A stretch of 64,000 nucleotides of DNA, from the NCBI RefSeq assembly GCF_003473485.1, contig NC_053048.1:47256255-47320254 (forward strand), given 5' to 3'. Shown piece after piece: positions 5,191 to 63,859 of this stretch. This DNA comes from Medicago truncatula (Eukaryota > Streptophyta > Magnoliopsida > Fabales > Fabaceae). The notes under the pieces were generated by a model that had not been told where the DNA came from, did not search any database, and worked only from the letters and a program-made list of their open reading frames with translations. The translations under genes were made by a program, and so were the position numbers. Position 1 is the first letter of the stretch; every line of letters begins with the position of its first letter.

Positions 5191-8100
5191 TTATATTGCG
5201 TACACTGTTTTATACTCGTTCTCAGAAGCTGACATCCCCGACATAGTCAATGAATGCCTACTGCTCGTCATTGTTCTTTGACTTCGTAATCTGGAGGCTT
5301 CGAGGCGGTGAGCAATCACCCAATAACAGAGAGTTCCTAGAGTAGCTGCCATAATCACTGTTCCTAGAGCTGTGGCTGCAATAGCCAACTCTTTCTGATC
5401 CCCAACAACTATGTATGACATTGCAAGGAATGCCACAGAAATTAACACACATGCTATCCACATTAACTTGTTTATAACAGCCGTCATTTGTTTCTTTGCT
5501 TCCCTTTCAATAACGACCACTGACGTTTGGACAATCACAACAGCCAATGATATGAAGAGGGCCGTAGAATCAAATATTACAAATATCAAGAATTCAATAT
5601 TGGGAGCAATATTGGCTTCCCCGGGAGACATTCCAGGAGCAAGGTTCTTTGTGTTCTGAGGATACTGGCCTGGGACAGTAAATATGGCAGCGAAAGCAAC
5701 AGTTGCAATGAGGACAGCAACTACAGTGTTAGAGTTGATTGCATTGTTTAGCCCCTCAGCCTGCATTTTGTTAATTCGCTTTGCTATGCCTTTCATACGT
5801 CTCTGTGTTTTAAATGTGTGCTCCAGCTGGTTATGAACCCCACTCTTTATGTCACTCACAGTTTGTTTGAGTTCAAGGGCTCTGTTTTTAGAAGGTGACT
5901 TGACGGACCTGGCATTTTGAGCTCCACGATCCTGCAAAAATTTGGCGATGTCCAAGCGACCAGTTCTCTCTGCAATATCCAAAGCCGTTTCTCCAGATTT
6001 ATCAATAACATCAGTGTCTATTTCTTTGCACTCTAGTAGCTTCTGAACAATCTGCAAGAATAGCACAAGAAATCTTAGATAAATTTGCATACTGTGGTTA
6101 CAGGATGCTAGGACCTAATAAACTGCTCAAGCTACTCAACCAGAATTTAAACACGGGACTACTACAAAGTACAAACAGTTGAGGGTATTAAAATTTGGCA
6201 GGAATGTAAGACTTATTTAAAAGTAAAAAACACTACACTTTCTATCAACTATTACATTTACACCATACATTTAACAGACAAGATCACAAGAGTAACCTCA
6301 GATTTACAATTCTAGTAACATACATACAGTGCACACTGTACAGCCACCACAAGTGCTGGAAAACTTTAAAAGTTCACACCTCTTATATATACCAGGCACG
6401 ACACACAGGTATGAATTCCTTTTAAATGTTCTTTCACTTTTTGAATTAATAAAAGGTTTTAACACAGATCTGCTTGTTAATATATGATATAAAAGCAGAT
6501 ATTTTCTGAAGTATCAAAGAACAATAGTATTTTTGGGCTAAAAAGAATATTGAGTTTATGGTGTTCAAGTTTAAGGTCTCTAGTCCAATGTCTAGTAGGA
6601 AAGAACACAAGTTCAGTGCTTCATAAGAAAAAAAGAAGAAGATATTTTTTAAACCTGCAGACGACCCTTCCGGGTTGTTATATGAAGTGCAGTGTTTCCC
6701 TTGGCATCCACCATATTAGCAAAAGACGGGTTCAGTTTCAAAAGCTCATCCACTACCTCCAGATTTTGTCCTTTAACTGCCATATGGAGTGCTGTTTGCC
6801 CCTTCTTATCAACTCTCATTGCAATTTCAGGTTCACTGCCAAGCAGGGCCTTGATGACCTCCACGTGGCCATTTCTTGCAGCAGAATGAAATGCAGTTTT
6901 TCCGTTGCTTTTCGCAATAGTTACGACGCTACTACTTTTCTCTAAGAGAAAATTTACAATTTCAATATGTCCTTGTGACACAGCTGTGTGCAGCGCAGTA
7001 GTGTTTGTCAGATCAACTGTCATTGAAATTTCAGGAAATGCCTCCGTGAGCACCTTCAATATCTCTACAAACCAGAAAACGAGAAAAGGACTCAGACATA
7101 TTCCAAAGATTAAATTGATATCATAACTCACAAGTTTCTAATTGTGTGATCAGTAAAATAAGGGTCAATACATTCCAAAAAAAAAAATTAAAAAAATAAG
7201 GGTCAATAAGAAACCAAGAAAACTGAAAGACATAAATATTTGGCAAATTTGGAAACAAGAATGAGCTCAAATCATACGCAAATAATATATAATCATTATT
7301 GGGTATTAATTCAAGACATAACCAAATTCTTTGCCATATTGAGCAAAGAATTGATATAACCATTCATCAAAATTTAGACAAGCCTATGTTAGGTTCCACA
7401 TTTGGAGCCACCAGAATTGATTATGGAGGTGTGAAGTTGATTCTGACAAGCCTATGTTAGTTGCTCAGGTACTGCAATTTGTAGGAGAGATTTGTCCCGA
7501 GAGATTCACGAAAATTGAGTGAACCAATGACATCTCCGAACTGGCCGGAAATCACGGCAGGTAAGAGGTTGAATTTTGTCAAACATTAAAAAACATGGGT
7601 GAAATTGTTGATCGGGATGCTTTTTTTCGCTAGATTAAAGCATTATCCTTAGTTGCTCTCAAGTAGAATTGATTTTGCCTCAAGAATTGATTCTAACTTG
7701 AAGTTAGGATTTGTGGCTTTTGAGTGTATATGATATTTTTACACCGAAAATTATTGTTCAACTAACTTATACCTAAATGTACTAAATCATAAATTACTTT
7801 ACATTCAACTAACTTTTAAGTAAAATCAATTCATTCGAAATCATTTTTTGTCGGTGCATAACCAAACATACACTAAATCAGATTAAAAGTTCAGTCACAT
7901 GGGTTTATCGAACACTCTAAGAGCTACTCATACAGGAGACCAATGATGTACTAGTATGTACCAAGACACAATCAAGGTTTTAAACTAGGGTTGCTATTTG
8001 TGGTTGCATTAATTGCTGTCTATTCAAAACCATGGATACAATATACTATTAATAGTAATAAAAGATCTAACACCTAAGTATTTCAGACAATTAAAGCTAA

Positions 8101-8401
8101 GAGACATACCCAAGTTTCCATTTTTAGCAGCAACATGAAATGCATCAAATCCATTTCTAGCTTTCAAGCTAGCCAACCCAATATCATGATATTTGATCAA
8201 TTCCTTCACTATATCAAGATGACCATTTTCAGCAGCAATATATAAAGCAGTTTCACTTGAATTATTTTGCTTTGAAAACAACTCCTTTAATTCTTCCCCT
8301 TGATTTTCAGAGATGATTTCCAATACCAATTCCAAATTTCCAACTCGAATTGCAGAGTGCAGGTGTGAATCACCCCTTAAACCTGTTAATTGTTTCTTCA
8401 T
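5191..8401 (-). CDS. Ankyrin-repeat PGG-domain membrane protein (ITN1-like)
   Basis: Three exons on the minus strand: 8110-8401, 6655-7064 and 5191-6051. All introns are GT/AG and the total is 1563 nt, 520 aa. Residues 1 to about 275 hold ankyrin repeats (SETALYIAAENGHLDIVKEL, GKTAFHSAARNGHVEVIKAL, GQTALHMAVKGQNLEVVDEL and others). The C-terminal half is the PGG domain, with the core FAAIFTVPGQY and four hydrophobic segments. This is the architecture of Arabidopsis ITN1 and ACD6-like plasma-membrane proteins, which are linked to salt/ABA responses and defence. Exon 2 is 410 nt, the same as in the paralogue at 22349-24618, and intron phases agree. A 22-bp micro-insertion lies in intron 1. The N-terminus is shorter than in the paralogue. 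Confidence 0.9.
7155..7208. repeat. Micro-insertion with 16-bp target duplication (intron)
   Basis: The 16-mer aaaataagggtcaata occurs at 7155-7170 and 7193-7208. Between them are 22 bp, cattcc followed by an A-rich tail. It looks like a retroposon insertion reduced to its last bases plus poly(A). Confidence 0.75.
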
Positions 8402-10599
8402 TTTCTCTTAGAAAAAGTACCAAGTTATCAAGTTCACATTTCTCTCAAAACAAAAGATCAATATTTATGAAAAAAATCTAAGAAATTGTATTAGGGAACT
8501 GAAACCGTAGTGGATGTTTTGTTGTTGTTAAAGTGGGGTTGTTCCTAAGATCTAGAAAGTGAAGAATTAAGAACCAAAAATCCAATTACTGGAGGCATAA
8601 TCAATATGGTTCATAAAGAGAGAGAGAGAGACCAAAGAATGAAGGAGGAAGTGTTGGTAACGTAAAAAACGAAATGGGACCAAAAGTCAGGTTTTTGGTA
8701 AGTTTGGTAAATGTTCAAGTGTCTTCCATTATTACAAAGGTCCCATTTTCCATTCAATACGACCAAGATCATGACGTTTGCGTGTCAGCTCAAGTTCCGT
8801 CTCCCTTTTCGCTGTGTTTTTGATCTATAATGTCCTTTATTAAATGCCCATTCTTACGTCTCAACCCAGTTGGTATGGACAACACATTTTTACTTGCATA
8901 GCACCATCCATAAATTTATTTTTATCATTAAATCGATAAATCTATTGTTTGATTAGTTAGAATATGATGAAGTTTATTGCTTACTTGCGCATAGCGTGAG
9001 ATAATTTATTTGTGTAAATTAGACCAGCTTCACTACTATTTGTTCATGAAAAAAACATAATCATATTTTATTATTATAAGAGTTTTAAATAGTAAATAAT
9101 ACTAGTAGATGCATAAATGAGCTTACTCGTTCGGTAATGAACGAGTCAAAGATTAAATCATATTGGTAGATAACGGCAACGGAATCTGACCAAAATAGTT
9201 CCGAAAAGGACAATTAATGTACAGAGGATGTGTGTATACGTAAGTTGCTAGATATGTTTTCCCGTACAGCCGCCCAAGACAATGCAATGTTCTACGATCC
9301 AGACGGTCTTGTTCTTGTTGTCATATAATCCAATATACCTGCGGAGTAATAATAATAATATACTATACAGATTCCTTTCATAGTCTAATTTTTTCTTTTC
9401 TTTTCAAAAGACTAATATATACATACATACATAGACACAGCCAACTCGTTCTTGTAAGTTTATCATCTTAAACATTTCGCTCTTATAATCCTCATAATTG
9501 GGGATATATGGACTATCATAAAATTATATTAATCTCGTTCGTATGTATTCCAGCTTGTTCTTGACCCATTCTCCCCTTTTTTTTTTTTTTTTTTTTATTA
9601 AAACTTGATATTCAATTCAAAATCGACTAATTTGAAAGATCAATATCACTGTTGATGTTTCTTACCGGAACAATAGTCTTCATCAAATAATTATATTTTA
9701 GTCATCATTTGAATGCTTCATAAAGTTTACATCAAAAATCTTTTTTTTTTTTTTACCGAAAACAAAGGTTCATGTAATGTCGTGCAACTTCAACACCGGG
9801 CGAAATAATAGAATGCAATGGAGACTAATTAATTTGCATTTTTAAAATATCAAATTAAATCTGTTACACAAAGTATGTTAAGATATTTGTTTTTATAGAG
9901 GAGGTGCCACTGCATCTTTCCGCTCATCAGATGCTCTGCTACTGGATGGGAGGAGGTGATTAAAAAAGAGCAAATAATTAAAAGAGATATATAAAAAATT
10001 AGATAGTGTTGAGATATGTAGTATTGTAGTGGAAGCTGAATCCAAAATAATAGAGAGACACTCATTGCTGTAGGGGTTTTTGAGATTGAGACCTGGTACC
10101 CCACTGCAACTTCCTCGTTTCTTCTTATTACTTATCATTCTCAATCACTTTCACATATCCAATAACCCCTTTTTATGTAGTATTGTTCACACTTGTCCTC
10201 CACTAACCCCTTTTTGACCGTCCTGTATGTAAGGATTTGTCAAATTACGATTCAAGATATACGGAACATGCTAAAATATTTAAAAATATATTCAGTACAT
10301 TAAAACATTTTTGCAATTATTTTTGAACCACAACTCTTAAAGCACAACTTATGAGCATAGAATACACAAAGCTCCATCCTGATGTCTTGTTGCATCTTTG
10401 TGAATGTTGGTTTTGAGGAACGAAAACAAAATATTCACATTAATAACCAAGTCTTATCTCATTAAATGAGATCGATTACATCAAATTATGCTATAATGTT
10501 ATATCATAAATCATATTTCAATGTAAATCATTAATCTCAATTTCTTTTTTAACAGTTTATCTTATAACATTTGTATGTTACCTCTATTGCTATGATTAT
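8402..10599. other. Upstream region of the ankyrin gene and intergenic DNA
   Basis: Includes a short GA run near 8618-8631, probably in the 5' leader or promoter of the minus-strand gene. Long poly(T) runs lie at about 9573-9596 and 9741-9754. No further exon or RNA gene seen. Confidence 0.55.
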
Positions 10600-10890
10600 A
10601 TTCTATCTTATCTTATATCATTTGTATGTCCTCTTTCTGAATGTCCAAAACTCCTAATTTTGTTTTCCACCATCTTTTATATTATAGGAGTTATTCCGGC
10701 TCTTTTTAATTTTGTACTTTTTAGTTTTACCTCACAGTCAAGACAACATCTTCATCTTTACTACATTTATTTTATTCTTGTGCTGGTTCTTAGGTGTCCA
10801 ACACCATGTTTCATACAACATCGTTGTTCTTACATGTCCCATAAAAAATTTCTTCAACTTAAACGATACTTTCGTATCACATAAAATACC
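10600..10890 (-). mobile_element. LINE fragment (end of reverse-transcriptase protein)
   Basis: Minus-strand frames read TTMLYETWCW...KNQHKNKINVVKMKML and, in a shifted frame, KMVENKIRSFGHSERG. These match the conserved tail MLYGTECWAVK...QHENK...AEMRMLRWM and ENRLRWFGHVERR of a widespread plant LINE. Stops and a frame change between the blocks show it is dead. It is the same protein family as the LINE tail at 1-192, but a separate copy on the other strand. Confidence 0.8.
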
Positions 10891-11749
10891 TGAAGATTTT
10901 CTCAATTTCAACTACCCTGTTTAAATACGATTATTTACATCTTTTCTATTTTTTCTTCATTTTATACTATTGACCCAAGATATAAGATTTTTTTTGTATC
11001 ATGAAATCACTTTTAATTTTCCCTGTCGTGAAATCAAACACGCTCTGATGAAAGTGTTCGTAGAGCGGGAATAAGCCTTTCCTCCCCAACCACACACCGC
11101 AACCTTGCACTCATGGCTTTCCGATGACATACGAACTAACTACCAGTCCACCAAATCAGATCAGGTCTGGCAAAAAGGGTTATGAGGATTGAGTTCTGAA
11201 CCAAATGAAGTAGTAACACATCCAATATCCTGTCAGATTTGAGATATTTGTAATTACTAATAGAATTTTTCTTTATCTAGGTGGTCTTTGTTTAATCTCA
11301 TCATGGAGTGTACTTATATTGCAAGGGATAACAAATGCTTGTAGGGGCACAGGGCAGCAAGGTGTTTAGTGGTAGCAGATCAGGGTGGCAGGAAGGCGCG
11401 CGTCAAAAGCGGCACAGAGGCTTGTGTAGCAATTGCCTTTTGAGAATGTTTGGGACTGATATTCTAAGAAAATCTTGCTCGATGTACTTAGCAAGATTTC
11501 TTTTTACAAGATTATCAAAACCGAATCCCGATCATTCAAACATTCCATTTCCAGATGTAATCTAAATATATGGAACTAGATATCTCCATTTCTAAAAGTG
11601 GAGAGAATCCAGATTCGTCGGAAAAATTTCTTCAAGAATTGCAAGAATGTCAAGTGTATTTCAGTTGAGAACCAGTGTTGACAAAAATCACGCATGGTAG
11701 ACAATTGAAAAGAACCAATCACATGCATTATTGAAAAGAACAAAATCTG
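10891..11749. other. Intergenic, no gene seen
   Basis: Mixed composition. A short open frame at 11335-11565 has no recognisable domain and I do not call it. Confidence 0.5.
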
Positions 11750-12520: not shown

Positions 12521-12539
12521 AAGCAAATAATAATGCTAT

Positions 12540-12835: not shown

Positions 12836-13888
12836 AGTTGAGCAGCTAAGATATTAATTACCTCTACCCTCTTCTCCCCGGTGGCTACATGCAGCAATGC
12901 AGTGTTTCCAAACTTGTCAGGAAGCATGATTCTTGCAACATCAGCAGCAAGAAGCAACTTCACCACTTCACGGTTAACCCCTTTGACCGCCATATGAAGC
13001 GGAGATTGTCCTTTCTTATCAGTCCTTCGAGCAAGCTGCACGTCCTTCCCTAGCAATATCCTGACAGCATCAACATATCATTGGCGTGCAGCTAAATGGA
13101 GTGCACTCTTTCCATTGGATCTGGCTAACTCCAACTGACTAGGATCGCAAGATAGTAATTCAACAACATATGCATGCCCTCTTGTAGGAGCAGATACAAG
13201 AGGGGTTGCATTTGAGTGTGGAAAAGTCTTGATTAGCTCTGGATCATGGTCTAGCAGCAATTGCACAACATCTGCCACAATTCAAACAATATTTAATAAC
13301 AGTGTCTACAAAGAATTATCAATATCAAAATCATAACCTGACTCTGACTGTTTGGATAAACAACTTAAGCGCCTATTATATAAGTGATTATGGATAAGCA
13401 TTTTCTATAACGAAAAAATAAAATAAAGTTAAATTATTTTCATATAAGCTATAAACTGAAGGCATAAGCTATCCTAAAGAGCTTATGGAAATAAGCTGAA
13501 AACAGTTTATCGGCGTGTCATAAGTCGTATGTATAAGCTTTCCCAGATAGTCTCACAAGTGGTTATGTCAACAGATAAGTTCAAATAATCGAATCCAAAC
13601 AGGCCAATAATACTAAAGTAATCACAGTTATAACTTTTTTGGTAGAAATAATCACAATTATAACTAACATTGAAGAAATGTTTCTAATATATAAAAAAAA
13701 AGCATTATTTTTATATTTATACCTCGACAGTAGTGTAAGGAAGGAGCTCTTAGACGACATCAAAACATCCTTTCTCAGCAGCAGTAAACAAAGCGGTTGC
13801 ACTCAACCCATTGACCTCATTGAGAACGCATGACCATATGTCTGTGACCAACTTCAAACTCAACGCCACTGAGCGTTCCCATCAATTG
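12836..13888 (-). pseudogene. Broken ankyrin/PGG (ITN1-like) duplicate
   Basis: Minus-strand copy of the gene at 22349-24618. The exon-2 equivalent (about 12861-13272) keeps ankyrin repeats almost word for word (LLDHDPELIKTF, TDKKGQSPLHMAVKGVN). It has a TGA in place of the Gly codon after LHLAARQ (near 13078), one codon lost and one gained. Of exon 1 only about 13726-13888 remains; its 3' end and the whole N-terminal half are missing. Exon 3, with the PGG membrane domain, is absent: sequence jumps from the downstream flank straight to the end of exon 2 near 12833. It cannot make a working membrane protein. Confidence 0.88.
13348..13603. mobile_element. hAT-like MITE in the pseudogene's intron
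   Basis: The ends read ctgtttggataaac and, inverted, cctgtttggattcg, typical of a common legume MITE. The body includes 'gagcttatggaaataag'. A diverged copy sits at the same place in the intact paralogue (23856-24073), so the insertion predates the gene duplication. Inside it, 13619-13665 just downstream is a separate poly(T) micro-insertion. Confidence 0.7.
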
Positions 13889-16331: not shown

Positions 16332-16340
16332 TAAGTTTTA

Positions 16341-31619: not shown

Positions 31620-32430
31620 TTTGCTTTCATAATTTTGATAGGTGTGGGGATTATGGTGAAAATATTTGGCATTTGTTTGTTACATGTCCGATGACTATTG
31701 AAACATTAAGAATTTTGGGACTTTGGAAGATGATATGACATCATTTTATGATTGTTGATAGTGTATTGTTGATCTATTTTTTCACTATTGCAAAGGAAAC
31801 GCCTCTTGTAAAACATATTACGTAATGCACGACCATTTGGAGCCTTTGAAATAATTGTAACCTGAAACTTTGGGAGGTGGACATTGATGAGGTCGTTACA
31901 TCGATATATCAATGTGTTGTCATGTTTTTCCATGGATGGCAGTGGACAAAGTTTCACCAAGCATTAAGGTATGAGTCTCATTCTAAGCAAGATTTAACTA
32001 AGTGGAGGAAATCATTTTTGTTGGAAAATTAAAATGTAACGTTGATGCACCTTTTATAGATAACAAGGTGGACATCAATATGTGCATCAAAGATCATCAC
32101 AGGTTATTTGCCAAAGATAAAACTACACATTAGTCACCTATGATGTCAAAAAAAGAAAGTGAAGCGTATGACCTCTTGCAAGTCATCAAGTGTGTAGTGG
32201 AATGGGTGGGGAGTGGATGAAGTCATTTTTGAGCTTGATGATAAAGTAGTAGTAGTAGATAATTTCAATAATCTTTCAAGGAATTTTTCTTATTTTGGTT
32301 TTATTTTGAATGATTGTATTTCAAGTCTTAAATATTTATGTCCAAACTCAATTGTGGAGTCCACTAAAAGAGTAGTTAATATTGTTTTTTTTTTTTTTTT
32401 GACAAAAGTAGTTAATATTGTTGGCAATGA
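31620..32430 (+). mobile_element. LINE remnant with RNase H domain
   Basis: Plus-strand blocks: CGDYGENIWHLFVTCPMTIETL (zinc-binding end of LINE reverse transcriptase), then KWRKSFL, VKCNVDAPF-like, NKVDINMCIKDHHRLFAK. Then comes VDEVIFELDDKVVV.NFNN.SRNFSYFGFILNDC (RNase H domain). Several frame changes and stops occur. It lies 120 bp right of the MULE's end and has no visible tail because the homology runs out near 32385. Confidence 0.75.
32371..32422. repeat. Micro-insertion with 16-bp target duplication
   Basis: The 16-mer agtagttaatattgtt occurs at 32371-32386 and 32407-32422. Between them lie only poly(T) and gacaaa. On the minus strand this is tttgtc plus poly(A), the same 3' end as the 437-bp retroposon at 61622-62058. 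It sits inside the LINE remnant. Confidence 0.75.
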
Positions 32431-33810: not shown

Positions 33811-34258
33811 AGTGACTCCACAAAATATGGGTAGTCAAACACTTTGGTAAAGACTCTTTACTCTTTGTACCAAAAAAAAAAAGAAGCTCTCTACTCTTAC
33901 ACGAGAGCAGGTCTTACTTGAGCACAAATACAAATAAAAATTGTTTGGATACACCGACATAAATAGAGAAAAATAAATGAGAGAATTTGGTCGGATCATT
34001 CAATTATTTTCTCTTTTAATTTTTTTTCATTTATGAATGTGTATCTAAACCTTTTATATATGTGTTTGTGATCAAGTAAACATTTCTCTTTGCACATATC
34101 TAAAAATAATGAGAAACATAAGTGTGAAATTATTATACATGTCATTTGCGGAAGATATTATTTTAAAATAAAAAAATAGAAAGAAAAAAAAAAAGATAGA
34201 ACTCTGACTTTGTGTGTGATCAGAGTTTGAACCTCGAACCTTACATATATTATGAATA

Positions 34259-34559: not shown

Positions 34560-34990
34560 TAAAATAAGTGTAGACAATATTATAAAAAAAAGGCAACATG
34601 ATAGGAATGAAATAAAGGCATGAAATTGGTTAAAAAAAAAGTGTACAAAATATTGTAAAAAAAAAAGCATGAAATTTGTGCGATGAATTTTTCTAGTATT
34701 GTGTACAAAATATTGTAAAAAAAAAAAACAGGCAAGAGGATAGGAATGAAATTGGTGCGATCCATTTTTTTAGTATTAAAGAAGTGTACAAAATATTTCC
34801 TTAAAAAAAGAAAGTGTACAAAAAATTGTCAAAAAAAAAAAATCCAAAAAAACAAGAGTATAAAATAGAAGACATCAAATTTGATCATTGATATGCTCAT
34901 AGTTTCTACAAACGTGCAACATCAAATAAGTGTAGAAAATATTTCCTTAAAAAAAAAAAGGCAAGATGATAGGAATGATATTGTTGCGAT
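34560..34990. repeat. Loose tandem repeats around poly(A) tracts
   Basis: Four or five units contain gtgtacaaaatattgtaaa, a poly(A) run, and 'ggataggaatgaa' followed by 'attggtgcgat'. They probably belong to the Helitron-like element that ends at 34259. Confidence 0.6.
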
Positions 34991-35030: not shown

Positions 35031-36869
35031 AATCTAATAAAGCAAATGAGCACGAATAAATTAGGTTAAATTGCTGCAGACCTAACAAAATTAATAAATA
35101 AGGATGTTCCTACCAAGTGAGCTAAGCTCATAAGGACAACCGTGTTTACTTTAAGGAAACATTTTAAATTTTCATTTTCTAAAATTTGTGTTAATTTACT
35201 TTAAAAAATATTTTGTGTTAATTTTAGCAACAAGGTGATAATAGAAATAAACAATGGTGTGCACGTTTTGCAAACATTCGTAGTCATATTTTCATTTCTC
35301 TCCCTCACAATTGTATATTTCAAGAGTTTATCTTCTTATCAGCTAATAAATATTTCACAAAGTAAACAAGATCTCGGTATCAATGATAATATGTTTTAAT
35401 CGGCCTTTTATAAGTCAAAAAAATTATTTTGAAAAAAGTCAAATTAATCATAAAAAATAATTAAATATGAATAGTGACATAACATCAAATAATGTTCAAA
35501 TGCCTGTAACCAAGCCGGAATTGTTCCTAAAAGATGAGATGATTTTATTGTTTTTGGACTTTTTTTTGAAGAAAACTAGAATAAAGGGGAAAAGAGATAA
35601 GAGAATTTTAGCTATCGTTTAAAAATGGAATAAGCAACGAAAAGTAAAGAGGAAAAGAGAAGGAAGAAAGCTATAGAAGCATCTGATTCTATGGAGCTAT
35701 GGAGGAACATATTTTTGTTCTTAGATGATGATGGAAAGAGAGAAAGAAAGTAGCTTTGCGTCTCATCCATCCACAGGAAAGCAAAATTCCAACTGGCCCG
35801 AATTTGTTCCATTAGAATCTCAATAATGCAGTGTTTTGATTCTCCTCAAGAATGCCTTTATTGTTTTCAAGTTGCATAATTCATGTGCCACTAGGATCAA
35901 ATGTTTATGCTAGCTAGTTTGATGCTTTCCTAGTTTAATTTCCAATGGATAAGGGATATGTCATTTGGAGTTTAAGATGAAAACTAAATAAAGTTGGATC
36001 AACAAAAGTTTGATATATTTGATTTAAAATTTGTATCGGACACATCAACTTTAATAACTCAACTGTGTAGAATGTAACCAAATTTTCAATTCTAAAAAGG
36101 ATTTTAGGACACCTTGGTATACTATCAAGTGGCTTGGTAAGTGCTAGTACTGAATTCATAAGCCATGCCCAACAAGCATGCAGAGTCACAGTGCATAGCC
36201 AAATTCAGTGTTTTGTGCCAGCAATATTTTTATCCTTTCACTTCAAGCCAGCGCTTCAAACGGAAATTCATGTCGCTGGAATTTCACGTCAATCCAAGAC
36301 AAGACATGTCTGCACCCGTATGCATATGTTGCACTCAAAAATAAGAAATCATTACTATATAGTGTTCTGAAATATTTGACAGCAGTAATAATTACAAACA
36401 TTTCACAAATAGTCACCCGTGAAAAATAATAGTACTCTTATGTCGTGGAATATGTATACATTTTTCTATAAATATATATATAAAATTGGGATACAGTTAT
36501 ATGAAAATGAGACAAAAATGTTCACATATTTCCTGTTGTTAGATAGAAATTGAGGAAGACTAAACAGTAAACCTTTTAACCATATGTAAAATAAAGTTCA
36601 CATGTTTTCTAGTGAATAGTGATTGTAATGTTTTTATTTTCTTTCATATAATGGAAACAAATATTGAGTTAAGGTAGGTTCAGTGTAGTTATTTCGCTTA
36701 TGAAAGCAATAAAAGTGTTGGATTTTATTTTTTTAACAAATCAAAATGGATTATATTGTTCAAACGAATAAGTGATTCACCTCAAATAAAGTGTGCTAAA
36801 GTGATAAATCACACAATCTGTTCATACCAGAAGGTTGCCACCACCAACTCAAAACAAAAAGACAAAATT
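35031..36869. other. Intergenic, no gene seen
   Basis: AT-rich DNA. I recognise no exon, RNA gene or element end. Confidence 0.5.
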
Positions 36870-47729: not shown

Positions 47730-48730
47730 AATTTTTTATTTCATTGAGCTACTGCAGAATCATTGCAACTTGCAAATATTAGTGCAATAAAAAGTATAGG
47801 TAGGTTTATTTTGATTGTGATATAAAAGCCTAATTGAAGTGTCTTGACATCACTATATAAGAGAAGGAATTCCAACTATGTCGATACCTCAAAACCTAGT
47901 AATCATACAAGTATAAAAAATAATGAATACTATAGTAGTACATGGTTTTGGACCATTCTTTTAACTTTCAACTATACTCTTAAATAAATTTGTCCATAAG
48001 AATGTTATATTGGTGGTGTCGTGTTATATAACCCAGAACACCAAGGTCTAGGGAGACGCATGTAAGTAACTTGTCATGTTATATTTTTTGACAAAGTTAT
48101 ATGTTATATAAACTGAATATTTTTGTCTTTTGGCCCAAATTTGACTCAAAACCCTAGCTTAACACTAAGAAGAAGTAAGTGTGAAAAATAACATCCACAT
48201 CACTTTGCTCACAACAAGAAGTCCTCATCAATTATGAGAGCATCAATATTGTTCAGATTGGAAGTGGAAGGGGTTTTACAACTTAGAATATGTTGATTGA
48301 TAATTACTTCATAGGGTTAAATCAAATTTGCATAAAGTAAAACCAGAGACGTGTACATAACCATATATAACACTCACACTAAATCAGCAGCGAATAGGCA
48401 TATGCAAGCATATTTCAAAAATCGGAATGAAAAAACTATGAAAGAAAATAACATAAAATCGGAATGAAAAAACAGTAAACTATAACACATACAAGATTTA
48501 CGATGTTCCGTCGTAGGTCCACTGTCAATGCAAAATTCTTGATATCGCTGATTATGAGAAACCCTTGTTCTTTCATATGCTTAAAACTTCACACTGTATT
48601 TTCTCTTTTATACGTTCATATATTTTTGTTTTTGGGTACAACCTTTTATACACTATAGAAAATAGACCCAATTGTTTTATGTGTGATTTGTGAGTCATAC
48701 CCCACTTCTTTTATAAACACCCTCTTATAA
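47730..48730. other. Intergenic, no gene seen
   Basis: AT-rich DNA. A possible micro-insertion lies at 48076-48109 (atgttatat on both sides of poly(T)-gacaaag). Confidence 0.5.
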
Positions 48731-48915: not shown

Positions 48916-48919
48916 TATA

Positions 48920-52989: not shown

Positions 52990-54800
52990 TTTTCTCTCTA
53001 CCCTTTGAAGATTCAACCCGACCCGGAACAAGTTTCTCGGGTTGCAGCAGCTATGGAAACTTGGAAAAGAACCTCTTTTATGTTCTTTGTTATCTCTCTC
53101 TATGGCTATGTCATGTGTTCTAGTGTTTATGTTTTTTTGTCTTTAAAATTTGTGTGTATTTTTAGTTTGAGAGTGAGACCATTAATTTAGTCATTGGTTT
53201 CTTTTTTTGTCGGGGAAACACCATGATTGGTTCTAATGTGCCTCACTGGATCATCTCTAAAACCAACTTCATTTATAAAATAAGTGCTTTTAAATTAAGT
53301 TAATTTATCTAACATGTCATGCCACCCACTACTGTATGCTCCTTACTGTCTCAACCTTAGGAATCTAAAAAAATTAAAATACCTAATGCATTTATTAGAA
53401 GAATAAGTCCTAAACTACAAAGAAAAAATATGTTATGTTATGTCCATTTAATTTATATATTAGAGGCCGTGTATAACTCATTGATGTGATCACAATTTTG
53501 GCCGCCCTTAAAATTCAACTTTATGACAATAATAACTGAACAACCACAACACAACGTACTAAAACAGCTGTAAATTTTAAAGATGTTCCAATAATTATTA
53601 CAAGACATGAGATGGGGCTCAATTTATTTTTCTTTCATTTTCACCTTTCTACCGACTAGTTCCGTTACCCAACTGCATTTAGAAAAGAAAAATTAGAGGG
53701 GAAAATCAAATTATTAGAACAAAGTTTGAATTAGTTTTTTTATACATAGTCACTTAGGTGAAGAATGTGCAATGTGATATAAGGTTGACTTTGTAGTCGG
53801 AAGTGACTACATGAGTCATTTCAGCTCTTGACTTAATTAAAAGTTGCATGTCTCAAAATTTTGTTTTGAATGCTAACCATTTCATAATTTTGTAATTATC
53901 CAAAATTATTTGACCTTATGAATTTAGGATTATGGATTACTATGCGACTATATAAAGTTCATATCAGATAAAGAGTAAAGTGATAAAGGTGATTTTAATG
54001 ATTCTTACAAGTTTTAGTGACATATTAATACTGGTTAAAAAAGTTGAGAGAGGTGTTCAAGTACATTAATAGCATAGAATTCGTTCTATTTATCTATCAT
54101 TCATTTATTGTCTATTTATCAGAAAGATATACATAAATGAAAGATTAACGAGATTCATTTACTTAACTTTTTTTCTTTCTTTCTTTGAAACATTGTTAAA
54201 TTAGCTTTTATTGATCTTTTCTTGTCTCTATTTATAAAGACAATAAATAAAGGTTTGTAAATAGGACAAATTCGATCTCCAAAAGAAAAAGAAAGCGAGT
54301 TTTGCAATTGCAATCTCACCGTCAAAGTTTTAAATCATGAAAAGAAAAAATAATTAAGACCACATCTGATCCTTAAAAAAATAGTGAAAAAGGATAGAGA
54401 CTTTTTTTAGGGAAAAAATGGTTAGAGACTTCGTATTTAAGAAAAACTAATTAACTTAAACACTTGCCATTCCATCAACTGATTTGTGCTCGAAAGATCG
54501 ATCTTAGGAGAGGTTAATGTAATTTTCTCTAATGATCAATGATAATAGCATAAAAGTTATTGAAGGACAATAGTGGCAGTGTTATCAGAATAGTATACGA
54601 AGTTACAAACCAACACCAAATTCCAAGACAGACAGACTGCTGTCATCAAATGTTGCAACAGAAAGTAAATAACCCAGTCTCTGTAGTTACTACATTCCAA
54701 ATTGTCACCATCTATAAGAGGATCCAAAGCATTTAGTCATAATAACTATACTGTTATTGTTAACTAATAAATGAAAATGTAGTGTCAATATGGTTTATCT
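52990..54800. other. Upstream of the kinase gene; intergenic
   Basis: The first ~150 bp are probably the kinase's leader and promoter. The rest is AT-rich. Micro-insertion candidates lie at 53191-53232 and 54392-54431. No gene seen. Confidence 0.5.
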
Positions 54801-57800
54801 TTACTTAAGAGAAGTCGTTGAATCTTTTTCAGATGTCATATTTGTTGTGTTCTTGAGTGGCATCTCATGGTTGTGCTTTCCTTCATATGTAGTCACAAAT
54901 GATTTTGGATCATCTATTGATCTCTCCACATGCTTGCGAACGTTACAGTTGATACTAGTACATCTATAGTAACTTCTGCAAGATAAAAAAAAATACAATT
55001 GTCAGAATAAACAAAATTGAGATTAAAGAAAAAGATACTAGGATCACTAGTCATTTGAATAAAAACTCTAACTTATTGATGTGGCGTCCACATAAAATGT
55101 GTCGTATCATACTCTCTAACAATTGAACTTAACGGATAAATCTTTTGATTGTCATGTTATAATTTCAGGGACAAAATTGCTAATTTGTAAAAGTTACAGA
55201 TGGTTACAATTTCAGGTACAAAATTTCCTACATACTCGATATTTTGGGCCGATGCATAGCAGAATTTAGAACCTTGCGTTATAAGTAATCTTGAAACAAC
55301 TCATTTTAAAAGTTACTTTGAAGAAGAAAAGTATAAACCTGGGATATGGATTTCCCTTCACCACCTTCTGCCCATATTTCCTCCAGCGAAAGCCATCTCC
55401 AAGGACTTCAGAATCCACAGAACTTTGCATAACAATGTGTGGCTCTACTAAACCTTCCTCTGATACTGCCACTTCATTTGATTGATTCTCATTTTTCCTA
55501 AAGAATGAGAAACTTTTAACATAAGTTATCCTTTAATTAAAAATTTATCATGACAAATTAGTTAGTTACCTCAAAAATTATAATTACTAATATGTTACTG
55601 TATAGACAATGCACAAACTTAATTGACTTAATGTGGAAGAAATTATGTCACAAATAACCAATGATTTAAAATAAAAACTCAGACAAGAGATTGAATCAAT
55701 GAAACATCCGAATCATGGTTGAACTGGATGACACAAATAAATAAAAAGTAAAAAAATAAATAAAATGAAAACTGGTTCAACTCTATTTTAATCTGCTTCA
55801 ACCTGACTATAGTATAACCGGAATGAAACCAACCAACGAACTGGCTGGTTCACAGTTGAAGCTGTCTTTTTGATCCAGTTTTTAAAACATTGCAAATTAT
55901 ATGAAGTTATATATTGCAAACTCATGAAGCTATTATGTATAAACTTCAGGCTATAGATTTAGTAAAAAAAAAAGAAAGAAAAAAATCACCTTCTTTTACT
56001 TCTAGAGTCATCTTCCTCTGCCTCAAATCCTTTGCTTCCTTCCTCACATTCCCCACTTAGACCACAAGAAGTTTCTAGAGCAGAATCATCAGGCAGTGAA
56101 GCTTTGACTTGATTCTCTATTCTTCCTTCATTCCTTTCATTCTGATTACTATTATTACTCCATACTTTATCTTGAACCATTCCATCAGAAATCATTCCTG
56201 ATGTTGCTCCCGAGTTTCGCTTTTGATGTTGTGGCTTTCCATGGTTGTGTTCACCTTTATAAACAATTTCTGCAATCTCACCATCTAATGATCTTTCAAC
56301 TTTCTTTTTAACTGGACAATTAGGATATGTGCACTTGTAATAACTTCGAGGATACTCGCTTCCTTTTACTTGCTTCTGTCCATATTTTCTCCAGTTATAT
56401 CCATCATACGAAGGTCTATCAGCATTATTTGTGGATGGTAATGCTTTTTGGTCCTCCTCAATGTTCTGTGGTGCCATCATACAAGATTCTGTGGCCTGAT
56501 ATGTTTCTGTAGGAAGGGTAATGTTCTGATGTAATTTCGAGCTCATGTTAGCTCTAAAGTTGTCATGGTTAAGATGCTGAGGATTGGTCTCCCTTGATTT
56601 CTGTGGTTGTTGCTGATTAGTACTGCAAATTCCCTTCTCCAGAAGAAGAGAAAGGGAGGTAAGTATTAGGGAAAATCCAAGTCTCGTTTGAAAAGAGATA
56701 AAATCTAAAATTAGTTTTATAAAAAGAGGCACCTCTCACTTTACAAGTTGATTTTGTAAGGTTGAGTAACCCAATAAAAAATTCCAATAGTCACTGACAC
56801 AAATGTAGCGGATAATTTATTTTGGAAATTTCTGTTAGAATTTGGTTTTGGAGTTAACTCAACCTCCGAAGTTAGCTCACGGAATGAGGGGTTGTCCCCT
56901 CACTTATAATCATCGTTTATATCATTGCACTAACCAATGTGCTCACATCCAAAACACGACATCTGGAGCGTAAAGTTTACATGCCTAAACATCTGCAGGT
57001 GGTCCAACAAATCTAAGATAGGATTTGATAACATATTTGATTTTTTATTTAGACTTAGCATATAATAAGCGAGTTGCTGTCACTTACAATGTTATTCTTG
57101 CTTAATATGACTGTCAACCATCTCAAAACATCTATATTGCTTGATGAATGAAGAGTAAACTTTCTGAATAAACTCATATCATTGATCAATTGGTTGAACA
57201 AAAAAGATTACAAATGAAGGATTATATATAGGATGAATAATAAAGTAACAAAATATAACAGAAATAAAACTAACTAAGCTAACTCATATGCATGTGAGAA
57301 AGAAGTGTATGATATGTGTGTGTAGATACTGACCATGTTTGCCAACAGAGAGACGGTTGTTTGTGACACAAATTTTGCCATTGGTTTGTAAATGAGAGAT
57401 TGATTGGTATCAGGTTTGGGATCCATGTCAGAAGAACTGCTAAGTGCACCTCCAGAAATATTAACCTGTAATTGGTAAAAACACAACATACATTAGAAAC
57501 CAAGAAGCATTTCAAAACAGTATGGCAATGTTTTAAAAACCAAAACGGACATCAATCCGGCATGACCTCTAGGTCATGATTCAACCGTCTTAAACCGCTC
57601 GAATCGAGACGAAACCAAAATCGAACTGCCAAAATAACCACACCATAGTAGTGGTCCGTTCAAGGTTCACTCGGTTGGAACTTCCAGTTCAGTTTTTAAA
57701 ACACTGCATTATGGTATGTTGCACTGAATGTTCACCTGAGAAGGGGGGATATTCATTGCTGGCTTGAACCTCACTGTCTTTGGCCTAATGGCGGATATTG

Positions 57801-57942
57801 TAGTTTGAGAAGATGCAATTGGAGGAGTGGAATCGATTGCACCTGCTAGAAGTTCTGAGAAAGATTTGTAAGAAGAACAAGTAGGCCTTGAAGCAACTGG
57901 TTTGGCAACAACTACTCTTTCTGCTTCTTCAATATCCATCAT
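54801..57942 (-). CDS. WRKY44: Group I WRKY transcription factor, TTG2/WRKY44 type
   Basis: Five exons: 57736-57942, 57334-57465, 55990-56633, 55339-55497 and 54801-54975; 1317 nt, 438 aa. The start [13 protein letters not shown]...[13 protein letters not shown] and [11 protein letters not shown] match Arabidopsis TTG2 (WRKY44), as does [22 protein letters not shown] domain 1: WRKYGQK at 194-200, zinc ligands C214, C219, H242, H244. WRKY domain 2: WRKYGQK at 366-372, C386, C391, H415, H417. The last intron splits the Arg codon of PYPR|SYY, as in group I genes. SRSKRRKNE (about 322-331) is a likely nuclear signal. TTG2 binds W boxes (TTGAC) and acts below the MYB-bHLH-WD40 complex in trichomes, seed-coat mucilage and tannin. 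The exon 3 acceptor (AG at 56634-56635) was chosen because it keeps frame and homology. Confidence 0.95.
55690..55895. mobile_element. Degraded MITE in WRKY44 intron 3
   Basis: Contains catggttgaactgg, 'gaactggctggttcacagtt', and ends ccagtttttaaaacattgca, the same end as the intron-1 element at 57527-57710. Left end poorly preserved. Confidence 0.5.
57527..57710. mobile_element. Foldback MITE in WRKY44 intron 1
   Basis: The ends are inverted copies: gcaatgttttaaaaaccaaa at the left and tgcagtgttttaaaaactga read inward from the right. Inner parts with aaccgtc, 'aaccgctcgaa' and 'gttcactcggttgg' are GC-richer than the intron. No coding. Confidence 0.65.
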
Positions 57943-59223
57943 GAACTGCTATGTTTCGCAATGTATGATTCTGTTTGCAAGACTTTCACCTTCAAAAACT
58001 AACAAGGGATTTATACTTATCAATGGTAGGTAGGTATAATTAAATAACATTAAAATTTGCAAATTACATACACAAAGGTTTAATAATGGTTCCTAATGCA
58101 ACTGTTTGTATTAAAAGTGTCAACAACTCAAAGTTTCAAAGGACAATAATAGTGCAAACATAATCGTAGACTAAAAAAGTTCTAGTGTAGTCCCAGATAT
58201 AATAGCTTTAAACGATTTAACTAATCCTTCCCATTAAGACATGTGTTAGCATTTTCCTTTTATCATTATCTCACAAATCAATAAATGGTGTTCGTTCCAA
58301 AGACATGAAAGGATGAGCCTGAAAAAAGAAAATTCAAGTAAAATTTGAGGCAAAACCATTTTTTAATGGTGAGGTCTTACTATTATTTTAGAATTTTAAT
58401 CTACTATTGTAGTCCCCACCAAAAAGGGAACTTTTTAGCAGAATGAACAACCTTGAAAGCCTAATAACCAAAGCATAAAAAAAGAGAAGTGGTTATTGAT
58501 ATGCATGTTTGGTATGATTAATTATCTGCTGAAATCATTGCGAGCCACCGTGATATCAAACATGCACGATAATTAGGATCAACAAACTAACCTGCAGAAA
58601 GTCAAGAAAAAGCTGTAACTTAACATGCCAAAGAGTGACAGCTTTGATTCTGTGACTTCTAATTTCCCAAATTGCATGGAACTGAGTTAAATTAACTCCT
58701 CCTGCATTACAAGAAGGGTCAAAATAAATAAATAAAAGTTCCTACAATATATATGACCATAAAAAATTCAAAAAATGATCCATGAAATCTATAATTGGGC
58801 TTGGGAGTTGAGAGAGTGAGAGGGAAACAACTTACGTAAATAAATACTAAATACTATGTACTAGTATTTATTTTATGTGTACATACTAACCATACAGAAA
58901 ATGAATGTAAGAGGGAGGAGATAAGAGAGGAAGTGTTTTGATTCCAAAAGTGAATAAATAAAGTTGGAACTTGGAACACATGCTTGTTACAATCTACAAC
59001 TACTAAAACTATATTGGAAATTAAAAAAAGATGAGAAGCATTGTGGATATTAAGGATTGGTTGTTCCAACCCCCCACATTTGTACGGACAACTAACTGTC
59101 AATATTTCTATCGTTTGACCAGTTGTTGGGGTTCACTGTCACCAACATAATATAGATAAAATACTAGAAAGAAATAAAAGTGAGATTTTGTTTTGTGTGG
59201 AAAAGATTGAGGATGGAAAAATG
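57943..59223. other. WRKY44 upstream region
   Basis: Presumed leader and promoter of WRKY44, possibly with a non-coding first exon that I cannot place. AT-rich beyond about 58700. No other gene seen. Confidence 0.5.
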
Positions 59224-60646
59224 TAGGGGTGGGTATGGTTCGGTTAACCCAAAAAACCGAATCAAATCGAATCGAAATTTTGAAATGGTTCGGGAAAATC
59301 AAACCAAACTGTTTCAGGTTGTGAGCTAACCGAACTGAACCAAAGTTATGGTTTGGTTAACCATTTGCTTACTTATTAACCATACCGAACCGAACCAAAA
59401 CAAATATTATTTATCCAATGAATAAAATCACTTTTATTATAAAAAATAACAAATTAAAATTAAAAGTTAGAATAGTTTATTTCTTCAAAAACAACTTATC
59501 TTATGCAAAACAGTTTATTTTAAAAAGCAGCTTATTCAAAAAAACTTATTTTATGAAAAACAATTTATTATGATCTCTTTTTAAAAATAGCTTATTCAAA
59601 ACCGCTTATTTTGTGCAAAACATCTTATTTTAAAAAATAGCTTATTCAAAACAGCTTATTTTATGAAAATACCTTATTTAAAAAAAAACAGCTTATTTGA
59701 TAAACAACTTATTTTCTGAAAAACAACTTATTTTAAAAACAACTTATTCAAAACAGCTTATTTTATGCAAAACACATTATTTTAAAAAACAGCTTATTTT
59801 ATGAAAAACAACTTATTTTTGAAAACAGCTTATTCAAAACAACTTCTTTTATGAAAAACGGCTTATTCAAAAAAGCTTATTTTATTAAAAATAGCTTGTT
59901 ACGACCTCTTTTTAAAAACAAATTAATCAAAACAACTTATTTTATGCAAAACAACTTATTCAAAACAACTTATTTTATGCAAAACAACTTATTTTAAAAA
60001 ATAGCTTATTTAAAATTGCTTATTTTATGCAAAACACCTTATTTTAAAAAACAGCTTATTCAAACAGCTTATTTTATGAAAACAACTTATTTAAAAAAAA
60101 AAACAGCTTATTCAAAACAACTTATTTTATTCAAAACATGCTTCTAATAAGTTGTTTTTTGAAAATAAGCTGTTTTGAATAAGTTGTTTTTAAAATAAGG
60201 TGTTTTTCATAAAATAAGTTGTTTTTTGAAAATAAGCTGTTTTGAATAAGTTGTTTTTAAAATAAGGTGTTTTTCATAAAATAAGTTGTTTTTTTAAAAT
60301 AAGTTGTTTTTCAAATAAGCTATTTTCCATAAAATTAGCAGTTTTGAATAAGCTGTTTTTTTTTTAATAAGTTGTTTTCATAAAATAAGATGTTTTTAAA
60401 ATAAGGTGTTTTGCATAAAATAAGCTATTTTAGATAAGTTGTATTTTTTTGGAAAGATCCATCAAAGAGTTCAAGTGGTTTCCTTAAAAAAAAAAAACAG
60501 TTTAAGTGGTTTGGTTCGGTTCGGTTCAAGATGGTTCGGTTATGGTTCAAAAACTATTAATAAATTAACGGTTCGGTTATTTTTGGTTCGGTTCAATTAG
60601 GTTCGCGCGGTTCGGTTTGATTCATGGTTCTTTTTGCTCACCCTTA
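59224..60646. mobile_element. Giant hAT-like foldback element
   Basis: Ends taggggtgggtatggttcgg and, inverted, taagggtgagcaaaaagaac, like the short ends of many plant hAT MITEs. Flanking 8-mers gaaaaatg and aataaatg agree at 6 of 8. Outer parts are rich in ggttcgg/ccgaacc. The interior is some 40 short units of aaaacanncttattttatg: about 59400-60130 on one strand and about 60145-60440 as the inverse, so the element folds into one very long hairpin. It carries a micro-insertion near 60468-60512. Confidence 0.8.
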
Positions 60647-61607
60647 AATAAATGTGTTAGTCCATCCACTTATCCCACATTTTTCAAAGTTTTGAACCCG
60701 TCACTAGTAGTTGACTTGGTCCGCTAAGAAAACATATAGGTTGAGGGTGGTTTGGAGTTCAGATATGTTCCATTTAAATAATGTTTCATTTAATCCATTT
60801 AAGTTATGATGCACGACATGTGACAAAGAAACATCTAATGGTTCAAATTTAAACAATCCAGTGTGGTCTTGCAGCTGCCATCAAAAACCAGTTTTTAACA
60901 TCGTTCACCGTCCATTATTATTCTGGTTCCAATTATCCCTTTCCATCTCAATTTGTTCCAACTCAACAAGCCAAACCCATTTGAATTCTCATACTAGAAT
61001 CTGAAACAAATTTAGGGGAAATTAAGAATGGTGAACAATAATAATGATATAGTTGTAAAATTAAGCAATGAATGGGATTGAAGAATTGGGATTAATGCAA
61101 ATTTTGTATATTTCTGTGTTGTTTGTTTTTTCTTCTCAAATCGATCAATGTTTCACTATAATTTCGACGGGTGTGGAAGATGAAAAGAGCGATGCTTGGT
61201 TGGTTTGTGTCGGCTACGACAAGACAAGGCTGTGATGAAGCGGCAGGTGGAGGTTGATGACAACAGACGGTAATGCAAGGAAGAGGATTCTGATTTATTA
61301 CTATTATTATTATTTTATTAAACAAACAAATAATTGTTTTTAAGTTTATATCTCGACTCTTAAATATTATTTTGTCATATGTCGTGCATCCATGAACTAA
61401 ATGGATGGAGCAGACCTAAACTCGGTTCAGCATAGGTCTAAAAAATTTCACTTCTTTTTCATTATAACTTGCAATCTAATTTATATATAATTTCTCCTAT
61501 TTTGACAGAGAATGAACATTAACTTATTTAATTAAATCACTTTGTTTGATGATTTTAGCCTCTTGTTTACAAGAGTTAATCAGTTGATTAATAATTAACA
61601 TCTTATT
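60647..61607. other. Intergenic, no gene seen
   Basis: No convincing exon. A short frame at 61092-61325 (-) shows no known domain. Confidence 0.5.
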
Positions 61608-62072
61608 TTGATTGCCTTGTTATTTCCCTTTTAACTCGTTTTTCTATTTTCCTTTTATTGAAATAAGTTATTTCACATCTATTTCGTTTTTTATTTTGTG
61701 ATTTCGTCGTCTTCGTACAACGTTGGTTGTTCGTCGTCTTTGTGCGACGTTGTTTGTTTTTCTTGTTTCTCTCAGGTATTTGATCACTTCAGATTGTCAG
61801 ATCAGCTTCGATCAAGTGCAGATCCAATCAATGACTTTGACGTCATCCACGTTGTAGATCCGGAAATATGATTATTCCGGAGATTTAAATATAGTAATAT
61901 GTGTAGACATTTGTACTTTGCCGTTTTATGTTATTAACATGGATGTTGTTAGTCTATTCACAGATTCATCCTTTTTGTTTTAAGTGAATTTGCATTATAT
62001 TGATGTTCTCTTTCAATTTGAATGAATGAATATCTTTTATTTTGTCAAAAAAAAAAAATTGATTGCCTTGTT
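61608..62072 (+). mobile_element. 5'-truncated retroposon (LINE 3' end) with target duplication
   Basis: 437 bp (61622-62058) between two copies of ttgattgccttgtt (61608-61621 and 62059-62072). The 3' end reads atcttttattttgtc and then poly(A), as in plant L1-type LINEs. No coding frame, so only the 3' untranslated region was copied. Confidence 0.8.
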
Positions 62073-62610
62073 GGCTACAATTCAAATTGAAAAGAAGTCA
62101 ACATATCTTCACCTCTAGTATAACATAAATTTTTCACCTTTTTCACTTGTCAATATTTTGTCTTGTTTGGAGGGGGTCGAGAAGACATTGTTATCATTTC
62201 TCCAAAGCACCGCCAAAAATGCACAACATTAAGATTTTTGACGCTTTCCTACTTTTAATTAATCAAATAACAAAAATATGCATCTCAACACTTCCAAAAG
62301 AAAATTAATATGCATCGTGACCCTATGAGATAAAAATAACTATCATGCAAAATTTATGACATTTGCATCATTTGATTTAGGAACATAAAATCCCTAAAGA
62401 TTTCTCTTTTTTTTTTTTTTTTGTTTGGTTTCCCAAATGTTTTCTAAACGAAGTTAACCTTATTCAAGACACGGTCTATCACTAAAAGTGATATCTCTTC
62501 CAATATTGATTTGAACCTTGGTTTGGCAAATATGTTACCCTTCCGTTAGAATCAACTACGGTAGATGAAAATCCCTATAGATATAGCTGTGAACATCATA
62601 TTAATTTTTA

Positions 62611-62653
<43 letters not shown>

Positions 62654-63859
62654 ACTGATATCTCGAGTTGAAACTGATATAGCTGATAAAATTCAACTTT
62701 TTACATACTACACTTCCAATGGAACCAATCACTGATGGCCGCCCCAAACTAATATTGAAAAAACAAATACAACAATAATACAAAAATCCAAATTATACTA
62801 TTTTTTATACCCATAAAAGAAATTAACCTTTCTTTAATCAATTGCAACAGACTTCAAACTTAATATAAAACAAAAAACAATATCTGGACGACAACTTCAA
62901 CCACAGAGACAGGACAATAGCTGATTAAGATATGAAGGTCAAGCAAAGAAAAATGTAGAAGGAAAAGGGGCTTAAAGGTGCACAAGGGTGACTAAAAATG
63001 AGCAATATAAAATGTAGGGCACAATCTATCTTGCACCAAGAAAACTTATGCAGTCAAGAGCTGGTACAGTGCTCAGTCTTAGTTTAGCAGCAGTTTAAAC
63101 TTCCTGGTTGGCAAATACTAAAGCCAACCAGCTCGGCCAGCTGCATTGTAATAAAACTCCACCCTATCACAAATTGGATGTGGGAAGAGGATCATTTGAA
63201 TATTTTTTAAAACCATTTATCAACTAATCTTGAAGACAAATAAAATATAAATTATCCAGACAAGAATCAGACATGTGGAATTCACATCACAGAAAAATAA
63301 AAAGAGAATTGCAATAATCTGTACTCACATTGATCCTACAAAAATATGACATTCAAAACAAAGTATAGTATCTTCCTTCAAAAAAAAAAAAAAAAAGTAT
63401 AGTCAATGAAAAGGAGTCATTGGTGACTATTGTGAAATAAGGTTAGTTAAACAGCAGAGGACATCAATGGCAAAAGCCTTTTGTAAATACCTTGAACATA
63501 ATATTAGTTCAATATAATTCAGTTACAACTTACAATAAAGTGATTGTGCCAATCCTGTTGGCATTATTGCTGAAACAGTAAACAAACATTTATGTAAAAA
63601 CTATATCAGAAACTCTGATACCAACATTAAAAAACACTAGTATATAACTGAAATAAAAAAAAATTAAAGAAACAAAAAGAAAATCCAAATAGGATATAAG
63701 TTTGATCAGATTATGACACTTCCTTATAACATTATTTATCAAAATAATACCAATTCGAGAAGCCAACCTTCCCTGGTTCTATTTCCTGCAAAATTGTATA
63801 GCATGCAGTATACACATGCAAAGAATGAAATACATAATTATACGGTACACTTTTATATC
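62073..63859. other. Intergenic, with a long poly(A) tract
   Basis: A run of about 37 A lies at 62616-62652. A micro-insertion lies at 63360-63403 (aaagtatagt twice around atcttccttc plus poly(A)). The last few hundred bases are probably the 3' untranslated region of the gene ending at 63860. Confidence 0.55.

Follow-up and report, generated by a model that had tools for sequence, protein, structure and literature searches.

Can retroposition leave an insertion so short that little besides its poly(A) remains? This question is raised by a 64,000-nucleotide (nt) stretch of Medicago truncatula DNA (C7:47256255-47320254, hereafter the window, in a genome of 430 Mb and 42 contigs, eight of them chromosome-sized). 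A sequence-only reading of it had listed eleven direct repeats around an A- or T-run plus a few other bases (the body), and had taken them for insertions of long or short interspersed nuclear elements (LINEs or SINEs) stopped a few bases into reverse transcription. Controls, retroposon 3' ends and paralogues empty of the insert all support that view, and we conclude that these micro-insertions are probably micro-retroposons, products of target-primed reverse transcription (TPRT) by L1-type LINE machinery that stopped 5-6 nt into the RNA body. What goes beyond the sequence-only reading is the near-fixed cut-off, 5-6 nt ahead of the poly(A). All eleven direct repeats are present in the window, and nine of the eleven sites stand as micro-insertions; those at 48076 and 53191 are weak and were recovered by no scan. 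The sites are given below with one further candidate and a longer retroposon that shares a 3' end with some of them.

1108..1155, minus strand: micro-insertion; 17-bp target duplication with 2 mismatches, body CCTCTC, A7.
3909..3951, plus strand: micro-insertion; 13-bp duplication AAGATATCAATGT, body AATGTACC (the GTACC LINE end), A11.
7155..7208, plus strand: micro-insertion; 16-bp duplication AAAATAAGGGTCAATA, body CATTCC, A11 + TTAAA.
13619..13665, minus strand: micro-insertion; 17-bp duplication with 1 mismatch, body TTTCTACC, A6.
32371..32422, minus strand: micro-insertion; 16-bp perfect duplication AACAATATTAACTACT, body TTTGTC, A16.
33854..33898, plus strand: micro-insertion; 12-bp duplication with 1 mismatch, body TGTACC, A11 then GAAG; score 9.
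35185..35224, plus strand: further candidate, absent from the sequence-only reading; 13-bp perfect repeat TTTGTGTTAATTT, body ACTTT, A6 + TAT.
48076..48109, minus strand: weak site; 9-bp AT-only repeat, TTTGTC-A5.
53191..53232, minus strand: weak site; 9-bp repeat with 1 mismatch, 15 nt preceding A7.
54387..54431, minus strand: older micro-insertion; about 17-bp duplication with 2 mismatches, body TTCCCT, A7; matched on both strands and counted once.
60464..60512, plus strand: micro-insertion adjoining repeats; 18-bp duplication with 2 mismatches, body CCTT, A12.
61609..62072, plus strand: non-autonomous retroposon of about 424 bp; duplication TTGATTGCCTTGTT, ending in TTTTATTTTGTC-A12, the 3' end common to the TTTGTC micro-insertions.
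63360..63403, plus strand: micro-insertion; duplication AAAGTATAGT, body ATCTTCCTTC, A14-17.

Two of the nine sites stand as insertions with a corrected duplication: the one first placed at 1112 extends over 17 bp with two mismatches (1108-1155, minus strand, CCTCTC-A7), and the one at 33854 covers 12 bp with one mismatch around TGTACC-A11. A LINE at locus L101 (loci are cited by L numbers) likewise ends in the CCTCTC of the former, and the insertion at 60464..60512 is apparently the same one that is present at L127. A strict window scan (A-run of at least 6, repeat score of at least 10, 3-11 nt preceding the A-run, tandem copies removed) gave 8 matches at 7 places, against a mean of 0.05 and a maximum of 1 over 40 dinucleotide shuffles and a single match in the mirror control, in which a T-run takes the same end. 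The excess over shuffled sequence was thus upheld, as it was against the mirror and against a third control with flanks exchanged between sites. Six of the seven places had already been read as insertions (1108, 3909, 13619, 32371, 54387 and 60464) and 35185-35224 is additional; a separate scan recovered 7155, 33854 and 63360 with scores of 16, 9 and 10, the latter two being modest.

The same polarity was found in an unpatterned sample of 264 kb, made up of the window and 20 random 10-kb stretches. Of 243 A-runs of 8 or longer, 15 lay next to the 3' copy of a duplication that scored at least 12 and enclosed a body of 3-10 nt; of 240 T-runs in the mirror, 2 did. Loose settings gather ordinary tandem repeats, as the T-run mirror and tandem arrays make evident, and later counts were therefore filtered: prior to any filter there were 48 A-run and 18 T-run matches, without the tandem filter (body 3-11 nt, score of at least 11) 15 and 5, with a less clean mirror, and after filtering with unlimited body length (run of at least 8, score of at least 11) 13 and 6. 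Many of the tandem matches in the scans come from window 59487-60364, which is densely filled with copies of a unit like CAGCTTATTTTATG, repeated in both direct and inverted orientation. In the 264-kb sample, filtered duplications with bodies of 30-499 nt numbered 8 for A-runs and 6 for T-runs, so that longer retroposons barely exceed the mirror in a search that covered insertions of up to 500 nt.

Replication slippage, or end-joining with filler DNA, could in principle give short direct repeats around AT-rich filler without any retroposition, and both T-run mirror matches and tandem arrays do exist. Against it stand the asymmetry of 15 to 2, the A-run at the 3' copy, and the retroposon 3' ends and A-rich target starts described below; an insert copied from neighbouring sequence and a lack of strand polarity, the marks of slippage or tandem duplication, were not found. 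Paralogues lacking the insert bear on it directly. Flanks joined without the insert were searched genome-wide for 41 distinct insertions (17 + 18 + 9 window sites, three repeated), scoring the best 40 candidates per query and reading 20 paralogues, and insert-free paralogues were obtained for five insertions (window 63360, L010:3765, L070, L036 and L086). The paralogue of window 63360 (L049, C3:17303901) is 95% identical over 122 bp and has one AAAGTATAGT and no insert; nine of nine paralogues read for L010:3765 lack the insert, as do all three for each of L036 and L086. At L070, near base 505 (C1:38857043), a TGTACC-A26 micro-insertion adds 44 bp to an NB-ARC-like reading frame, which is frameshifted as a result; the addition is missing from four paralogues with 94-97% identity, and the translation of one of them (L109) matches NB-ARC. 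Since both the insert and the second target copy are missing, slippage is excluded for these five insertions. The sequence-only reading had allowed that empty alleles might show slippage in place of clean single-copy targets, and what was found, at 63360 among others, is the clean target. Slippage or filler could still hold for 48076 and 53191; as a general explanation it is scarcely credible. Among the best 40 candidates per query, the other eight of the 9 window sites queried gave no paralogue spanning the junction. A 76% paralogue of window 1108 (1451-1754) spans its junction, but the joined and filled versions align about equally and it is too diverged at the target; the 23.9-24.3 kb paralogue, tried as an empty site for window 13619, was rejected as too diverged at the site, and L041/L119 is ambiguous as an empty-site pair.

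The targets resemble those of an L1-type endonuclease. In a set of 40 micro-insertions (15 unpatterned and 25 from the targeted places described below), the duplications measure 12-19 bp with a median of 16, inside the range of roughly 7-20 bp for an L1-clade TPRT product; the score threshold itself removes short ones. Two or more As stand ahead of the duplication core in 29 of the 40, compared with 33% at control positions, and the base before the duplication is T or C in 31 of the 40, which fits an endonuclease target of T/C before the cut and AA(AA) after it.

The bodies, in turn, point to particular source elements. Genome-wide, strings preceding A14 were counted against the same string backwards, and four retroposon 3' ends showed a 4- to 25-fold excess over their reversed strings: TTTTGTC (478 vs 19), GTACC (285 vs 44), TGCTT (56 vs 13) and CCGTC (39 vs 9). 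Six pyrimidines before A14 gave 5849 against 1452. In a search with the zf-RVT domain (PF13966), the best 150 of 6220 candidates were scored and 20 loci downstream of domains were fetched. An A-run was read as the tail at 17 of the 20, the choice of tail being a judgement at some loci (L091, L099, L104, L105); L103 and L106 had none and L108 had A-runs only within a repeat, and L094 duplicates L093. The LINE ends so read are mostly pyrimidine-rich, including TTCCGTC, TTGCTT, TTTCCT, CACTTC and TTCCTCTC, with L095 and L099 less so. The GTACC end occurs as GGGCTTCGGCCCTCTCTTGTACC-A14 about 1.1 kb downstream of a zf-RVT match at C1:7870268, and the 28-nt end of this LINE with its hairpin plus A5 was found at 26 places with at most 2 mismatches and at 0 places backwards. 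Judged by these matches, GTACC-A(n) is the 3' end of an L1-type LINE, which bears out the grouping of gtacc-A(n) sites proposed in the sequence-only reading. The parallel grouping of tttgtc-A(n) sites with the retroposon at 61.6 kb stands as far as TTTTGTC-A(n) is the 3' terminus of that family of about 424 bp (1992 candidates, of which the best 40 were scored, with at least 90% identity), but its 48.1-kb member is weak. No LINE with a TTTTGTC end was present among the LINE ends read at zf-RVT loci, and an Rfam scan of 61000-62300 gave no match, although the 61.6-kb retroposon may still be a SINE. The micro-insertions themselves retain just 5-8 nt in which the small-RNA head and RNA polymerase III promoter of a SINE could be sought.

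Thus the body equals a LINE 3' end for GTACC, CCGTC and TGCTT, over 5 nt only, and such a match does not extend to every body. Untemplated addition at the cDNA end had been considered, the bodies being pyrimidine-rich, and was dropped once these strings turned out to be the 3' ends of retroposons. It might also be proposed that part of the micro-insertions derive from mRNA tails, as aborted processed pseudogenes, and not from LINE RNA. The bodies are indeed diverse, and L1-like retrocopies have been reported in dicots (PMC4838847), but those bodies that recur match the 3' ends of LINEs or retroposons, and we consider this origin improbable.

The distribution of body lengths was obtained from 99 targeted places. 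On the plus strand of C1, the leading 30 TTTTGTC places (out of 478 genome-wide) and the leading 20 GTACC places (out of 285) were used; the six-pyrimidine pattern contributed its first 9 plus-strand places out of 5849, and CCGTC and TGCTT contributed 20 each, out of 39 and 56. The CCGTC set comprises 20 of the first 25, with the LINE loci L093 and L094, one place just downstream of another zf-RVT match and two of a 10-kb series omitted; the TGCTT set omits L092's own place. By these omissions the micro-insertion share of both sets is somewhat raised. With a duplication score of at least 11, a body of at most 11 nt and 75 nt searched, 42 of the 99 places carried a micro-insertion, against 0.02 per 99 with swapped flanks (at most 1 in 50). 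By 3' end, these were 14/30 for TTTTGTC, 9/20 for GTACC, 10/20 for CCGTC, 4/20 for TGCTT and 5/9 for six pyrimidines. The body was 6 nt long in 21 of the 42 and 5 nt in 11, the other 10 being spread across 3-11 nt. Longer bodies within the 75 nt numbered only four (16, 21, 51 and 29 nt), and no duplication was found there at the remaining 53 places. Those 53 include LINE ends with a hairpin at L060, L067 and L073, a duplication 310 nt upstream at L077, several of L129-L147 that resemble longer LINE ends (not proven from 80 nt) and two copies of the 424-bp family (L037, L038). At L030, L035, L040, L045 and L046 no duplication was found around TTTTGTC-A(n), which there lies as an internal run within a repeat, between similar flanks (ATGACAATTTATGG ... 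GGTTTGAGGTTTCC).

The search patterns demand 5 or 7 body bases, so shorter bodies cannot show, whereas the upper edge is unbiased. In the 15 unpatterned cases of the 264-kb sample, bodies measured 3-4 nt in 1, 5-6 nt in 8, 7-8 nt in 5 and 9-10 nt in 1; there was no excess of bodies of 0-2 nt (2 for A-runs, 8 for the T mirror), none of 11-19 nt for A-runs and one of 20-29 nt. In the set of 40 the body averaged 6.1 +/- 1.3 nt, with A-runs of 8-26, and the two lengths were not significantly correlated (rank correlation 0.24, p 0.14), so that a constant total insert length was set aside as unneeded. It is these lengths that speak against ordinary LINE 5' truncation, in which random stops fall along the RNA and the present sites would be the shortest class. 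The machinery and signatures would be identical, and broad 5' truncation is usual for human L1 (PMC12016303). The truncation point is not broadly spread here: 5-6 nt accounts for 32 of the 42 bodies, only four duplications enclose 12-60 nt and the 0-2 nt class shows no excess. We therefore regard ordinary truncation as quite unlikely, and the near-fixed truncation point makes these insertions a variant of the TPRT product of L1-clade LINEs.

A course of events can be proposed for such an abortive TPRT. The endonuclease would nick the target between a pyrimidine and an AAAA-like run; reverse transcription would start from the freed T-rich end, annealed to the poly(A) of a LINE (or LINE-tailed) RNA; and it would cover the tail but no more than the final 5-6 nt of the body. 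Synthesis of the first strand would then end, and the stub would be joined to the staggered top strand, with a 12-19 bp duplication around a body of about 6 nt and A(n) as the outcome. Duplications, the A-run at the 3' copy, retroposon 3' ends, empty paralogues, the A-rich target start and a near-fixed body are all observed. The body lengths are best fitted by an abort some 6 nt beyond the poly(A), and we infer the cause of the stop: synthesis may fail when the rA:dT hybrid has left the grip of the enzyme, with about six heteropolymer pairs in place. A broader proposal, that plant L1-type reverse transcriptases pass an abortive checkpoint about 6 nt into the body as the rA:dT hybrid exits, and that the integrated stubs leave scars which rank among the genome's most numerous retroposon insertions, is tentative and falls somewhat short of probable.

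Two other causes of a fixed stop have to be weighed against this checkpoint. One is a short template: the machinery might use in trans 3' fragments of LINE RNA that carry an oligo(A) tail and were cut about 6 nt ahead of it, and might copy them to their end, which would yield a fixed body length and no pure-A class. A nuclease would need to cut at that place in many unrelated 3' ends, and we know of none that does; this origin seems unlikely. The other is that the enzyme halts at a hairpin, or at a protein-bound recognition element, in the LINE 3' end. Over 19 LINE 3' ends the mean pairing probability exceeded that of letter-shuffled ends at most positions from -12 to -20 and fell below it from -2 to -9 (no significance test was applied), the GTACC LINE carries GGGC-TTCG-GCCC, and in one monocot L1 lineage a 3' hairpin is reported to be conserved (PMC3747384). 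The predicted hairpin base, however, lies 9 nt from the tail in the CCGTC LINE (L093) and 11 nt from it in the GTACC LINE, and both stop at 6 nt, which points, as a soft test, to a stop measured from the tail.

The CCGTC (L093) and GTACC folds are no stabler than letter-shuffled ones (z 0.1; 0.7 and 1.1). For the TGCTT LINEs the fold is ambiguous, with energy giving tails of 0, 6 and 0 nt and inner stems judged by eye giving 13-15 nt, and three TTTTGTC ends disagree in fold (z -2.8, 0.0 and 0.4). Such statistically weak folds leave the hairpin explanation weakened, not removed, and we hold it to be unlikely. Several observations weigh against abortive TPRT as the explanation of the micro-insertions. 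Source RNAs were inferred from only 5-8 nt, and the bodies ACACACAAC, CATTCC and GATGTT match none of the LINE ends read; the expectation that the bases before the A-run would be LINE or SINE 3' ends held for several recurrent bodies but not, among the ends read, for these. The lower edge of body length rests on the 15 unpatterned cases, as the patterns favour bodies of at least 5 or 7 nt, and the detector itself contributes in part to the A-rich target start, since it lets a duplication begin inside the A-run. Moreover, a portion of the T-run mirror matches is unexplained, only 5 of the 41 insertions gave an insert-free paralogue among the best 40 candidates per query, the L036 and L086 paralogues differ by a few bases in length at the target, and no de novo event was seen.

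The micro-insertions resemble 5'-truncated insertions of L1-clade LINEs in the poly(A) beside the 3' copy of a duplication (12-19 bp), the A-rich target, the LINE 3' end and empty sites; they differ in that their bodies are mostly 5-6 nt and too short for similarity-based annotation. A human poly(T) insertion in NF1 exon 25 is reported as L1 endonuclease-dependent, and its authors consider that it could be an Alu, L1 or processed pseudogene in severely truncated form (PMC3219598). It too has little besides the homopolymer, but it is a single disease allele, and no body length or class recurs in the part of that text consulted. In Arabidopsis, truncated Sadhu retroposons (PMC2848041) have 7-16 bp duplications starting with As and sites empty in some accessions, and abortive retrotransposition was invoked for them; they are likewise plant poly(A) retroposons with duplications and empty sites, whereas partial Sadhu copies still align to their element. 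The tailless retropseudogenes of therians (PMC5322556; described in PMC4838847) are also a non-standard product of L1-type TPRT, but without poly(A). A literature search of open-access full texts found no description of a numerous insertion class with a body of 5-6 nt.

As for abundance, the random stretches alone (200 kb) hold 11 unpatterned cases, which by rough extrapolation correspond to about 24,000 per 430 Mb, with a Poisson range of some 12,000 to 42,000; only runs of A8 or longer with well kept duplications enter this count. If this reading is true, counts of LINE activity from annotated copies overlook a frequent reaction outcome whose scars are invisible to repeat annotation, and the points at which LINE reverse transcriptase fails are preserved in genomes as a fossil record. 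That synthesis should end at a near-fixed distance of about 6 nt beyond the poly(A) is also a sharp, testable statement on initiation versus elongation in TPRT, and the scars provide genomes with new poly(A) tracts and with small coding disruptions such as that at L070.

Two minor observations concern related sequences. In L092 (reverse complement), two more micro-insertions were seen by eye just downstream of the LINE end, TTTGTC-A14 at 1096 and TCTT-A10 at 1322. Window 34618-34960 holds tandem copies of a unit bearing an A-run (AAGTGTACAAAATATT...), some with TCCTT-A7, and may represent an amplified micro-insertion.

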